Of a stretch of 64,000 nt of DNA, positions 59,711 to 64,000 are shown in pieces. The DNA is from Tissierellia bacterium. GTDB lineage: Bacteria; Bacillota; Clostridia; Tissierellales; Tepidimicrobiaceae. Numbering within the stretch: the stretch's first letter is position 1; every line of letters begins with the position of its first letter. Below the pieces are notes generated by a model. That model searched no databases, was not told the DNA's origin, and saw only the letters and a list, made by a program, of their open reading frames with translations. The position numbers were made by a program, and so were the translations under genes. Location: the NCBI GenBank assembly GCA_012735215.1, contig JAAYHX010000009.1:1-64000 (forward strand), given 5' to 3'.

Positions 59711-60202
59711 ATGGCAAATTCAGATCTAAAGACCTTGATAAGGTATTCGGTACTCATAGCATTAACTACAGTAATGACCATGGTAATTCATATACCTACC
59801 CTTGGAACTAATGGGTATTTGAACTTAGGAGACATGGTTGTATTTATTGCAGCTTTAACAATGGGGAAAAGGGCTGGCTTGATAGTTGGAGGTGTAGGCT
59901 CTGCCCTAGCTGATTTGCTTTTAGGATATACTCACTATGCACCTATTACCCTTGTAGTTAAGGGCTTAGAAGGATATATAGCAGGAAGAATACTAGAAAC
60001 CAAGATAGGCAGACAAAAACCGCTAATAGCTACAGCAGCAGGTGGTATTTTTATGGCCCTTGGATACTTTGTGCCTGAAATATTCATGTATGGAAAGGGG
60101 GCAATAGCCTCCATACCAGGGAATATAGCCCAAGGACTCCTAGGAGCTTTTTCATCCGTAATCCTGTTTATGGCTTTAAGGAGGGCTAGATATTTAAAAT
60201 AA
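59711..60202 (+). CDS. ECF transporter S component
   Basis: A 163-residue membrane protein with five or six helices, of the small S-component type that binds a vitamin or precursor and docks on a shared ECF module. Segments such as GYLNLGDMVVFIAALTMGKRAGLIVGGVGSALADLLLGYTHYAPITLVVKGLEGYIAG fit the ECF-type riboflavin-transporter-S/HmpT-like family. Specificity cannot be assigned. The 140-base leader after the previous terminator shows no riboswitch I recognise. It is monocistronic. Confidence 0.83.
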   Translation: MANSDLKTLIRYSVLIALTTVMTMVIHIPTLGTNGYLNLGDMVVFIAALTMGKRAGLIVGGVGSALADLLLGYTHYAPITLVVKGLEGYIAGRILETKIGRQKPLIATAAGGIFMALGYFVPEIFMYGKGAIASIPGNIAQGLLGAFSSVILFMALRRARYLK

Positions 60203-60236
60203 AAATAGTGGAGAATTCATCTCCACTATTTTTGTC
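60201..60236. terminator. Bidirectional terminator
   Basis: AAAAATAGTGGAGA (60201-60214) and TCTCCACTATTTTT (60220-60233) are perfect 14-base arms, between two convergent genes. Confidence 0.9.
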
Positions 60237-60237
60237 T

Positions 60238-61473
60238 TTAAAATGCCCAATTTCCATTTTCAAATATTTGAAACTTTTCTCCTTCTCTGGTTTCTCCAAC
60301 TATGCTCAAATCCTCTGTGCCTATCATAAAGTCCACATGGGTTAAGGAATCATTTACTCCAGCCTTATCTAACTCTTCCTCCTTCATATCAGTACCGCCC
60401 TTTAGGTTAGTTGGATAAGCCTTGCCTAGGGCGAAGTGGCAGGAAGCATTCTCGTCAAACAAGGTATTGTAGAATATAATGTTGGAGTTTGAAATTGGAG
60501 AATCATAGGGTACTAATGCAACTTCTCCTAATCTCTTAGCGCCTTCATCTAAATCCAACAGATCTTTTAACACCTCATAGCCTTCCTCAGCTGTAAAGTC
60601 TACAACTTTTCCTTCCTTGAAGGTTAGGCTGAAGTTGTTGATTAGATTGCCTCCATAGTTTAGGGGTTTGGAGCTGTAAACTATGCCATTAACTCCGTAT
60701 TTGTGGGGCATAGTAAATACTTCCTCTGTAGGCATGTTGGCTACAAAATATATGTCCTTTGAATTCTTGCCCCCACCGCCAGCCCAGAGGTGGCCTTCGG
60801 GTAGTTCCACTTCTAAATCGGTGCCCTTTGAGGACTTATAGTATAGCTTTTTAAAGTTCTTTTCATTGAGGAAGTTAACCTTATCCTCGATATTCTTAAG
60901 ATGTTTTCTCCAAGCTTCAACAGGATCATCTTCATATATACGCAAGGCCTTAAATATAGCATCCCATAGCTTTTCTACTGCTTCCTCTTCACTAACATCA
61001 GGGAAAACTCTCTTAGCCCATTTCCTTGTAGGGATGGATATAACGCACCAAGCGTTAATATCGTTCATGGTGTAATTTCTAAACTTCATCAAGCCTATAG
61101 ATGTGGCCTTGTTGTTTGCAGCTATCTTTTTAGGATCTATTCCTTTAAGTAAATAAGGGTCCTGCGCTGAAATAGATAGGAAACCAGCTCCCTTTTCTGC
61201 ATAATCCTCCAAGCCATCTGCATACCATTTTGGGAAGTTTTCAAAGACTTCCATAGGAGCATATTCATATTTCATTCTAGTTAAGTCCCCATCATTCCAA
61301 TTAACATGAACTTCTTTGGCCCCAGCTTCATAGGCGTGTTTGGCTAGTAGCCTTACAAACTCAGCCCCTTCTACAGGTGCATTTATTACTAAGGGCTGAT
61401 CTTTTTGAATATTGATACCTACCTTAATACATAAGTTGGCATACTTCTCCAATAGTATATTGAAATTTTCCAA
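60238..61473 (-). CDS. M29 family aminopeptidase (AmpS/PepS type)
   Basis: A 411-residue dimetal exopeptidase. Metal-site regions are in the C-terminal half: GKVVDFTAEEGYEVL, VALVPYDSPISNSNIIFYNTLFDENASCHFALGKAY and THVDFMIGTEDLSIVGETREGEK. The N-terminal half has LEKYANLCIKVGINIQKDQPLVINAP as in AmpS. TTG at 61471-61473 is the start, with GAGGTG five bases upstream. It is a cytoplasmic peptide-degrading enzyme with broad N-terminal preference. Confidence 0.93.
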   Translation of the reverse strand: MENFNILLEKYANLCIKVGINIQKDQPLVINAPVEGAEFVRLLAKHAYEAGAKEVHVNWNDGDLTRMKYEYAPMEVFENFPKWYADGLEDYAEKGAGFLSISAQDPYLLKGIDPKKIAANNKATSIGLMKFRNYTMNDINAWCVISIPTRKWAKRVFPDVSEEEAVEKLWDAIFKALRIYEDDPVEAWRKHLKNIEDKVNFLNEKNFKKLYYKSSKGTDLEVELPEGHLWAGGGGKNSKDIYFVANMPTEEVFTMPHKYGVNGIVYSSKPLNYGGNLINNFSLTFKEGKVVDFTAEEGYEVLKDLLDLDEGAKRLGEVALVPYDSPISNSNIIFYNTLFDENASCHFALGKAYPTNLKGGTDMKEEELDKAGVNDSLTHVDFMIGTEDLSIVGETREGEKFQIFENGNWAF

Positions 61474-61690
61474 AGTATCACCTCACAGTTTATCAATACT
61501 AGGTTATAGATATAGTTTACATGATTGGCAATGGCTTGTAAATGGATTCTACAGCTTTAGAGATTTATTAAAATAATCTTAAGAAAATTAGGACTTTGGG
61601 AGGAAATTTGAGATGTTTATAGAAGTAGTATATATCCATTTTATTGTTCCTATGAAAATTTATTTGATTATTTTTATAGGGGGAGCAAAA

Positions 61691-62638
61691 ATGTCTAGGG
61701 TCTCAAATGCTCTTAAAATGTATATGCTGTTACAAGGAAGGCAGCTTATAAAAGCTGAGGAATTAGCTTATATATTAGAGGTATCTACAAGAATGATACA
61801 AGAGTATAAAAATGATCTAGAAAAGGCTGGTATATATATTGGCTCAAAACGGGGAAGGAATGGAGGTTACTATTTAGAAAACACCTTTGACCTTAAGGGT
61901 ATAGAATTTGGGGAAAATGAAATTGAAGCACTAAAAATGGCTACAGAAGTTATAAAGAGTGGTAATTATCCGTATTCAGTTGATTTTCAATTGTTTTCCA
62001 GCAAGATACTTAATGCAGCAAAGGATTATGATTTTACATCGTACTATAGCAAACCAGCATTTAAGCATAAAAGTATGAATGACAAAGAGAAAAGAATATG
62101 GCAAGATATCAACAAGGCTATAATGAATAAAAAGAAGGTAAAAATGAATTATACTTCTATGAAAGAAGATAAAAGAAGCACGAAAGTAAGGATAGTTCAT
62201 CCTTATGGAGTTTTTGATTATGAAGGTTCTACATATTTTTACGGGTATTGTGAGTTAAGAAAAGAGGTTAGATTTTTTAAGATCCCTAGAATACATGATT
62301 ATGAAATATTGGATGAAAATTTCTGTATAAATATCAAATATGATATAAGAGAAGTTGTAAGTAAATCCTTCGGTATATACAATGATGAACTAATAGATAT
62401 AATAATTAAAATACATTATCCAATGAGCGAGATAGTAAAAGAAAAGCAGTATGCAGTAGAACAGTTTATAGAAGAGATAGATGAAGATACTATAATGTTC
62501 AAAGCAAGGATGAAGGGTTATAAGGAAATAAAATCTTGGGTTTTAAGCATGGGAAGTTTAGCAGAAGTAATTGCACCTAAAAAGCTTAAAGATGATATTC
62601 TAGCTGAAGTGAAAACTATGATTGAATTATATGAATAA
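61691..62638 (+). CDS. HTH/WYL-domain transcriptional regulator next to the cas operon
   Basis: A 315-residue regulator. The N-terminal DeoR-like helix-turn-helix (about 5-60: LLQGRQLIKAEELAYILEVSTRMIQEYKNDLEKAGIYIGSKRGRNGGYYL) is followed by a WYL domain (about 135-230; core VRIVHPYGVFDYEGSTYFYGYCELRKEVRFFKIPRIHDYEIL) and the WCX C-terminal part. WYL domains bind nucleic acid or nucleotide ligands, and WYL regulators are frequent beside CRISPR-Cas and other defence loci. ATG at 61691 follows AGGGGGA. It is transcribed toward cas6 but ends in a strong terminator, so it is a separate unit. Confidence 0.9.
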   Translation: MSRVSNALKMYMLLQGRQLIKAEELAYILEVSTRMIQEYKNDLEKAGIYIGSKRGRNGGYYLENTFDLKGIEFGENEIEALKMATEVIKSGNYPYSVDFQLFSSKILNAAKDYDFTSYYSKPAFKHKSMNDKEKRIWQDINKAIMNKKKVKMNYTSMKEDKRSTKVRIVHPYGVFDYEGSTYFYGYCELRKEVRFFKIPRIHDYEILDENFCINIKYDIREVVSKSFGIYNDELIDIIIKIHYPMSEIVKEKQYAVEQFIEEIDEDTIMFKARMKGYKEIKSWVLSMGSLAEVIAPKKLKDDILAEVKTMIELYE

Positions 62639-62663
62639 AAGGTTATTGCTAACCTTTTATTCA
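62632..62663 (+). terminator. Perfect 14-base-pair terminator overlapping the WYL gene stop
   Basis: TGAATAAAAGGTTA (62632-62645) and TAACCTTTTATTCA (62650-62663) pair around TTGC. The stop codon lies in the left arm. Confidence 0.75.
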
Positions 62664-62728
62664 TATTACACCAAATATTTCCTATTTGTTTGATATAGTT
62701 ATTTTAAGTACAAATCTTTTCTAATTTA

Positions 62729-62803
62729 GTTCTATTAAATAACTTTTCTAACAAATCACAAATATAAATTTACATTCCATATAGACAACTGGTTCTATTA
62801 AAT
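62729..62803 (-). repeat. Degenerate CRISPR-repeat-like pair in the cas6 leader
   Basis: ATTTACATTCCATATAG (62768-62784) equals, on the minus strand, the last 17 bases of the C. difficile type I-B repeat as I remember it, including the 8-base crRNA handle ATGTAAAT. The block continues to GTTCTATTAAAT (62792-62803), and that 12-mer recurs at 62729-62740. So on the minus strand there is a repeat-like unit, a 27-base spacer-like stretch (62741-62767), and a partial second unit. The array repeat of this organism is not in the window, so the match is provisional. Confidence 0.45.
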
Positions 62804-62860
62804 TTAAATACAATAAACATTATACTACGACAAGAGTAAAAAATAAATAGCAAAAATTAT

Positions 62861-62889
62861 TTGACAATTCAATTTATTTATTTTACAAT
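62861..62889 (+). promoter_or_regulatory. Promoter of the cas operon
   Basis: TTGACA (62861-62866) is a perfect -35; TACAAT (62884-62889) is a good -10, with exactly 17 bases between. It lies 55 bases before the cas6 start and is the only strong promoter in the 300-base gap. Confidence 0.7.
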
Positions 62890-62944
62890 ATAAACAAGAC
62901 ATTCACAAAGCACAATTATAATGGAGATAAAGGGAGGTGAATTA

Positions 62945-63670
62945 ATGAGATTTAGTGTAGAACTACTTTTAGACAATGAGAAAATCCCAAAAGATAAGAA
63001 CAGGATGATTCTCTCACTATTAAAACACAGCTATATGTCCTATGACCAGAACTATTACTATGAATTGTATGAGAAAATGCAAAACAAAATGAAAAGTTTT
63101 ACCTTTTCAATGTATATGGGGAACTGTGAATTTTTGAGAGAAGAAATATCTATACCAAACAAGAAAATTATTTTAAACTATTCTACTTATGACACAAAAG
63201 ATGGGATCTTATTTTATAATTCTTTTCTAAATATCAAAGGCACAAGATATCCAATAAAAAATAATGCAATAACAATAAATAATATAAGATTAGTTAGAGA
63301 AAAACACATAGTAGACAATGTGGTAATGTTTTCAACCCTTAGTCCGATTTCAGTGAGGGAGCATCAAGGCAACAATAAACAAACTTGGTATCATTCCTTA
63401 AATGATACTAAAGGTCAAGAAGTGTTTATGAACAATCTTAAATTTCAGTTAATTAGTTATTTTGGAGAGGAAAGAGATTTAGATATTGACGAGGTTGAAT
63501 TTGAAGTATTGAGAAATAAAGAAGTAAAAGTAAAACATTATGGAATAGAGATTTTAGCAAATATATGCAATTTGAGAATAAAGGCAAAGCCATATATTTT
63601 AGATTTTTTATATAAAGGGGGAATCGGAAGTCAACGAAGCACTGGATTCGGAATGGTTGACTTGGTATAA
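62945..63670 (+). CDS. cas6: CRISPR-associated endoribonuclease Cas6
   Basis: A 241-residue protein of the RAMP superfamily with two ferredoxin-like halves. It starts MRFSVELLLDNEKIPKDKNRMILSLLKHS and ends in the glycine-rich loop YKGGIGSQRSTGFGMVDLV that is diagnostic of Cas6. A likely catalytic His lies in the first half (KHSYMSYDQNYY region near 28). It cuts the CRISPR transcript within each repeat, leaving an 8-base 5' handle. ATG at 62945 follows GGGAGG. It is 12 bases upstream of cas8b1, the first two genes of a type I-B operon that runs off the window. Confidence 0.92.
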   Translation: MRFSVELLLDNEKIPKDKNRMILSLLKHSYMSYDQNYYYELYEKMQNKMKSFTFSMYMGNCEFLREEISIPNKKIILNYSTYDTKDGILFYNSFLNIKGTRYPIKNNAITINNIRLVREKHIVDNVVMFSTLSPISVREHQGNNKQTWYHSLNDTKGQEVFMNNLKFQLISYFGEERDLDIDEVEFEVLRNKEVKVKHYGIEILANICNLRIKAKPYILDFLYKGGIGSQRSTGFGMVDLV

Positions 63671-63682
63671 GGAGGTGAGGAA

Positions 63683-64000
63683 GTGTCTGAAAAGATTAGA
63701 GTAAGTTTAGCTGACTGGCAGTTTAATGCTGGGGTAGTGGGACTATTTAATATTCTAAAACATGCTGGAGATCAAGTAGTTGTTAAAAAGAATTATTTAG
63801 AGTTTGAATCAGAATGTCTAGAAAAATTTGAAATAAAATATTTTAATTATCTTATAGATAAATACTGGGAAGTATTATCAATCAATAAGATAATTTCAAT
63901 CGAAAAATTTATATCATATTATGAGGAAAATGATTTTGAAGAATTTGATGACGATAGTTTAGAAGCTATAAACAAATATATTAATGATGTAAAAAGATAT
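63683..64000 (+). CDS. cas8b1: Cas8b1/Cst1 large subunit of type I-B Cascade (partial, N-terminal 106 residues)
   Basis: The frame opens with GTG at 63683, six bases after GGAGGTG, and stays open to the window end. It reads SEKIRVSLADWQFNAGVVGLFNILKHAG, the typical N-terminus of Cst1-type Cas8b1 proteins (short beta strand, then DWxxNAGxxGxxxIL). Large subunits recognise the PAM and hold the target. The position right after cas6 fits type I-B order (cas6-cas8b-cas7-cas5-cas3...). The remainder is outside the window. Confidence 0.82.
   Translation, partial: MSEKIRVSLADWQFNAGVVGLFNILKHAGDQVVVKKNYLEFESECLEKFEIKYFNYLIDKYWEVLSINKIISIEKFISYYEENDFEEFDDDSLEAINKYINDVKRY

Follow-up and report, generated by a model that had tools for sequence, protein, structure and literature searches.

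A two-repeat mini-CRISPR upstream of cas6 as a probable CreR-type guide for autorepression of a type I-B cas operon in Tissierellales

The DNA analyzed here (herein referred to as the window) comprises the first 64 kb (64,000 nucleotides) of a 71.6-kb contig from a Tissierellia bacterium, and genes beyond its end were read on the same contig. A small repeat-like unit, the subject of this study, adjoins a complete type I-B operon (cas6-cas8b-cas7-cas5-cas3-cas4-cas1-cas2) with a CRISPR array beyond cas2. The first gene of the operon, cas6 (62945..63670, plus strand; TIGR01877), is preceded by the promoter TTGACA-17-TACAAT (62861..62889, plus strand), which agrees with the consensus at 11 of 12 positions. 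On the other side of the unit lies a gene for a WYL-domain regulator (61613..62638, plus strand; WYL and WCX domains; coordinates of the open reading frame as listed, with the start likely further in), and between this gene and the unit is a strong palindrome (62629..62666; 17-bp stem; 70-nt fold of -23.3 kcal/mol) that is a possible two-way terminator. The ordinary array is located 3' of cas2 at 71.2 kb, 8.5 kb from the unit, and consists of the repeat CCATTAATAGAACTACAGTAGAATGTAAA followed by G, T or C; further copies lie on contig C22, and the repeat pattern occurs nine times genome-wide, on two contigs. The last repeat base varies along the array (G000:C23:71224 to the contig end; C22:1-300), the five complete leader-proximal repeats ending in G and the distal repeats of C22 in T or C.

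The unit is a two-repeat mini-CRISPR on the minus strand (62802-62712), in the order psiR1, psiS, psiR2. A preliminary description of this DNA had recognized a lone, degenerate element between the WYL gene and the cas6 promoter, comprising a 36-base block with the type I-B handle ATGTAAAT at its end and a 12-base piece of its other end that recurs after a 27-base spacer-like stretch. The position and the block (62803-62768, with the repeat-like part starting at 62802) proved correct, and the spacer-like stretch is the 27-nt psiS; the 12-base piece does recur, but it is in fact part of a second degenerate repeat, psiR2 (TTAATAGAACTAaAtTAGA), which up to the Cas6 cut has two mismatches to the genomic repeat. 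The same description had proposed an alignment of 62768-62803 to the organism's own repeat, and the resemblance is indeed present: the array repeat begins and ends with TTAATAGAAC and GAATGTAAA, and both ends recur unchanged in psiR1 (62768..62802, minus strand). The middle of psiR1 is an enlarged loop of 14 nt as opposed to 7 nt in the genomic repeat, and the 3-bp stem has changed from CTA/TAG to CCA/TGG (in RNA, CUA/UAG to CCA/UGG) and is hence still paired. The second repeat (62712..62740, minus strand; ATTTAATAGAACTAAATTAGA aligned to the genomic repeat), which has the same form in 13 units, follows the genomic repeat, apart from two changes, as far as the predicted Cas6 cut (62720|62719), and its divergence is confined to the sequence 3' of that cut. 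The changes in psiR1 and psiR2 therefore spare the parts that would become the 5' and 3' handles and not the parts that would be discarded, a pattern also described for creA genes (PMC8501985).

Between the repeats, psiS (62741..62767, minus strand; TTATATTTGTGATTTGTTAGAAAAGTT) provides a 27-nt guide that is shorter than array spacers; when both are counted by the same measure, psiS is 29 nt and the array spacers are 39-41 nt. From the Cas6 cut positions of the genomic repeat and of published creA genes (PMC8501985), a mature crRNA-like RNA of about 56 nt (62720..62775, minus strand) is predicted, beginning with the 5' handle AUGUAAAU from psiR1 (62775-62768, minus strand). A putative -10 box of the unit's own promoter, an exact TATAAT (62819..62824, minus strand), lies 23 nt before psiR1 and is accompanied by a weak -35, and TATAAT-like hexamers (5-6 of 6 positions) occur 9-27 nt before psiR1 in all 13 tabulated units. 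This -10 box is tentative, because the promoter was missed by a two-hexamer promoter scan and AT-rich DNA contains many hexamers of this kind. A search of 60000-64000 against Rfam returned sub-threshold matches only.

In type I crRNAs, positions 6 and 12 are unread. We scanned the locus with psiS while ignoring every sixth position, without using the PAM for ranking, and obtained one outstanding site, TTATAaTTGTGcTTTGT (62905..62921, minus strand). All 15 read positions of psiS through position 17 (1-5, 7-11 and 13-17) match 62921-62905 of the minus strand, the only mismatches fall exactly at positions 6 and 12, and pairing extends only through position 17. The site is flanked by a 5'-CCA-3' PAM (62922..62924, minus strand), CCN being present in all 12 units with a target (here and in relatives), and is located between the cas6 promoter and the cas6 Shine-Dalgarno/ATG (62945), 24 bp before cas6. 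Mutational tests of CreA found seed positions 1-5 and 7-11 to be needed (PMC8501985), and CCN is a functional PAM of the Clostridioides difficile type I-B system (PMC8406132). A search for CCN plus the psiS seed gave one perfect site in the 1.885-Mb genome, namely that in the cas6 leader, and the next site outside the locus has two mismatches; among 20,000 Markov shuffles of the leader, a run of 16 was never obtained and a run of 14 was obtained once. The shuffles and the genome-wide scan exclude chance as the source of the psiS-target match. A first target candidate, TTTATATT (62894-62887), an 8-nt run overlapping the -10 box, was dropped in favor of the 16-position match with its CCA PAM.

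Across 249 genomes of the order, a Cas7 search identified 42 related loci, of which 33 were fetched and placed by tblastn; a Cas6-based search of genome contigs for related loci gave no match. In most arrays of these relatives, the repeats belong to the same family as those of this genome. Including the present one, 13 units were found, 12 of them in Tissierellales: ten lie upstream of cas6, and the others belong to G020 (1.5 kb upstream), G009 and Acetoanaerobium pronyense. Unit-bearing species in the all-genome scan, which added Acetoanaerobium, include Tissierella praeacuta, T. pigra, T. creatinophila and Anaerosalibacter massiliensis; one further match of that scan (L123, T. pigra) proved to be an ordinary array. 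A pattern scan of 391 sampled genomes at class level detected no unit outside the order, and the unit in this form is hence narrow in distribution. Guides across all units are 20-32 nt, as opposed to 37-42 nt for array spacers by the same measure (with a few outliers among the arrays).

The guides differ among genomes, yet in 12 of 13 units the seed matches a nearby CCN-flanked site (CCA in eight, CCC in two and CCT in two), with seed runs of 12-18 in eleven units and a run of 10 in Acetoanaerobium, where 18 of 20 positions match. When guides and leaders were swapped among the ten leader units, runs next to a CC PAM did not exceed 7 in 88 of 90 non-cognate pairs, and the remaining two pairs come from the sister genomes L060 and L073. 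AT-richness does not explain this guide-target covariation. The preliminary description had allowed that part of the repeat similarity might be chance in AT-rich DNA, a caveat that fails given 12 more genomes with the unit, mostly upstream of cas6, and a spacer with a specific target; its expectation that the unit would be conserved in related strains was borne out, and conservation extends to the covarying spacer-target match.

Several individual loci deserve separate description. In G009, a member of the same family as the window's genome, the unit and a CCC-flanked target are intact (L091, positions 1-330) beside an M29 aminopeptidase gene, as in the window; cas6 and cas7 were not found in this genome, whose contig ends about 120 bp past the target, leaving the cas operon side unassembled. 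The sister locus of T. creatinophila (L079, G240) retains the unit with changes in both repeats, but no recognizable target was found nearby and a genome-wide search gave no convincing match, so that this unit is probably a guide in decay. In L060 and L073, the 3' part of psiS is the inverted complement of the psiR2 start (GTTCTATTAAA...TTTAATAGAAC in L060, with a shorter version in L073), and the precursor could therefore fold on itself. Finally, in L057 (G037; oriented positions about 1840-2360) a unit lies on the plus strand, upstream of the WYL gene. It matches, more weakly, a CCA-flanked site that immediately precedes a gene of about 90 codons, whose small protein product may be controlled by the guide (CrePA-like).

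Ordinary type I-B arrays of Tissierella and Clostridioides share with the unit a ATGTAAAT-type handle and, in C. difficile, the CCN PAM (PMC8406132); however, they consist of many near-identical repeats and full-length spacers, whereas the unit is solitary, its two repeats diverge from one another and psiS is short. Two described kinds of mini-CRISPR are closer. The cas-regulating RNAs (CreR), mini-CRISPRs reported in 2023 for types I-B, I-E and V-A, are outlined in reviews (PMC12737573, PMC13131331) as degenerate-repeat units beside cas genes whose guide has limited complementarity to the cognate cas promoter region and which need no toxin. The present locus shares these traits: repeat-derived psiR1 and psiR2 ends stand next to a type I-B operon, and the guide has a limited, PAM-flanked match to its own cas6 leader that is unique in the genome and covaries in relatives. 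It differs from CreR, as outlined there, in having its target a short way downstream of the predicted promoter, and repression with a response to crRNA load and anti-CRISPRs, a feature of CreR, would apply here by analogy. The type I-B CRISPR-regulated toxin-antitoxin modules (CreTA) (PMC8501985, PMC9458426) have in common with the unit a two-psiR anatomy with conserved 5'-handle parts in psiR1 and 3'-handle parts in psiR2, a seed at positions 1-5 and 7-11 and a PAM-flanked target. The two degenerate repeats with preserved handle-forming parts are present here as well; however, no toxin gene was found at the locus and the target precedes cas6, although some related loci are CreTA-like. Because no toxin was found between the unit and cas6, the locus falls outside the definition of CreTA.

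We hypothesize, with considerable confidence, that the unit is a CreR-type guide through which Cascade represses the adjacent I-B cas operon. The sequence itself establishes how the unit is built, how it relates to the genomic repeat, that its guide has a seed match beside a PAM, that no second perfect site exists in the genome and that guide and target covary in relatives; transcription, Cas6 processing, Cascade binding, repression and feedback would follow by analogy with work on CreTA and CreR. A promoter of the unit's own, near 62824, would drive transcription to the left along the minus strand, and Cas6 would cut both degenerate repeats to release the crRNA-like RNA of about 56 nt (62775-62720) with its AUGUAAAU handle, 27-nt guide and 3' handle. 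Cascade loaded with this RNA would bind the cas6 leader at 62921-62905 via the CCA PAM and seed positions 1-5, 7-11 and 13-17; since pairing ends after position 17 and the guide is short, we propose that no cutting by Cas3 would ensue, and in other I-B systems Cascade with shortened guides does repress without cutting (PMC10551041, PMC10989794). The bound complex would block transcription of the cas6-cas2 operon; because the target is downstream of the -10 box, it would do so as a roadblock or by occupying the start site, without masking the entire promoter. The result would be a negative feedback: a shortage of Cascade, its occupation by ordinary crRNAs or its inhibition by an anti-CRISPR would relax repression. 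Points against autorepression are the poor -35, pairing only to position 17, a target 3' of the -10 box and the unit at L079, for which no target was detected. The CreR- or CreA-like guide RNA suggested in the preliminary description is thus supported by the resemblance of the unit to the genomic repeat and by the conservation of the unit and its covarying target; that description had left open whether the RNA is a regulator or a guard, and a regulator of the CreR kind is favored here over a toxin guard of the CreTA kind, as the protospacer falls within the cas6 5' leader and the interval from the unit to cas6 yielded no toxin gene.

It is improbable that the guide instead, or additionally, represses a small toxin RNA or mini-ORF in a CreTA-type addiction module. 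Five relatives (L051, L054, L055, L060 and L073) do combine a distal target, candidate short ORFs and a strong hairpin, as expected of creT; here, however, the cas6 promoter lies between unit and target, and a search between target and cas6 found no toxin-like ORF or terminator-like hairpin, only a 12-codon frame that runs into cas6, with the cas6 Shine-Dalgarno and ATG directly next. Less probable still is a dead array relic devoid of present function: the degenerate repeats, the single spacer and the apparently decaying unit at L079 would suit a relic, but degeneration spares exactly the handle-forming parts, and guide-target pairs are matched at read positions despite their differing sequences among genomes. 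Equally remote is regulation by the WYL protein, with the repeat-like DNA as its operator or a chance AT-rich similarity, since, although the gene adjoins the unit here and in L051, L054, L055, L060 and L073, fetched loci that combine a unit with an intact target (L061, L062, L077, L080 and L127) yielded no detectable WYL homologue, WYL genes occur without a unit in L053 and L069-L071, and the shuffles together with the genome-wide scan exclude chance. Both the relic and the WYL-only readings fall short because they leave the preserved seed-PAM match unaccounted for; WYL control could nonetheless act in addition to the guide.

Beyond CreR-type autorepression at this locus, the targets fall into two layouts. 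Five loci (this genome, L061, L062, L080 and L127) have the target 20-27 bp before the cas6 ATG, one of them served by a unit 1.5 kb away, whereas in five others (L051, L054, L055, L060 and L073) the target is about 200-270 bp before cas6, with candidate short ORFs 3' of it, the majority of which have a strong Shine-Dalgarno, and with a strong hairpin immediately ahead of the cas6 Shine-Dalgarno. In L077, a plus-strand unit has its target at -106. The candidate mini-ORFs ahead of cas6 (about 270 to 10 bp upstream) are often hydrophobic, for example MYFLLLFTLIRKVTISLYIGLSL in T. praeacuta, and the loci that combine mini-ORF and hairpin could encode CreT-like toxins or a leader peptide with an attenuator. 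On a Cas6+Cas7 tree, whose branch support is uneven, the two layouts are interspersed, and this interspersion suggests that the job of the unit changed repeatedly, with gene transfer as an alternative. We tentatively entertain, at slightly less than even odds, the reading that the mini-CRISPR slot beside cas6 in Tissierellales has repeatedly changed its job, serving repression of cas6 in some species and repression of a toxin-like mini-ORF promoter in others. Under this reading, cas6 would be repressed directly in this species, T. creatinophila, UBA8386, G020 and, outside the sampled order, Acetoanaerobium, and a promoter with a toxin-like mini-ORF and hairpin, situated ahead of cas6, would be repressed in T. 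pigra, T. praeacuta, Anaerosalibacter, G175 and G210.

CreR is a known kind of element and, as far as the kind is defined in the reviews (PMC12737573, PMC13131331), the unit and its comparative set are a strongly supported new example of it. They provide natural guide-target pairs, testable by sequence, for RNA-guided autorepression of type I-B systems; the 12 pairs vary in sequence but share the PAM and the seed reading frame, with a cas6-proximal target position in five loci, and so lend themselves to comparisons of Cascade repression without cutting. Since some related loci have targets in the cas operon and others have seemingly toxin-like targets, the evolutionary route between CreTA and CreR becomes directly testable. 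If the repeated change of job is true, CreR and CreTA would be interconvertible states of one element within one order.
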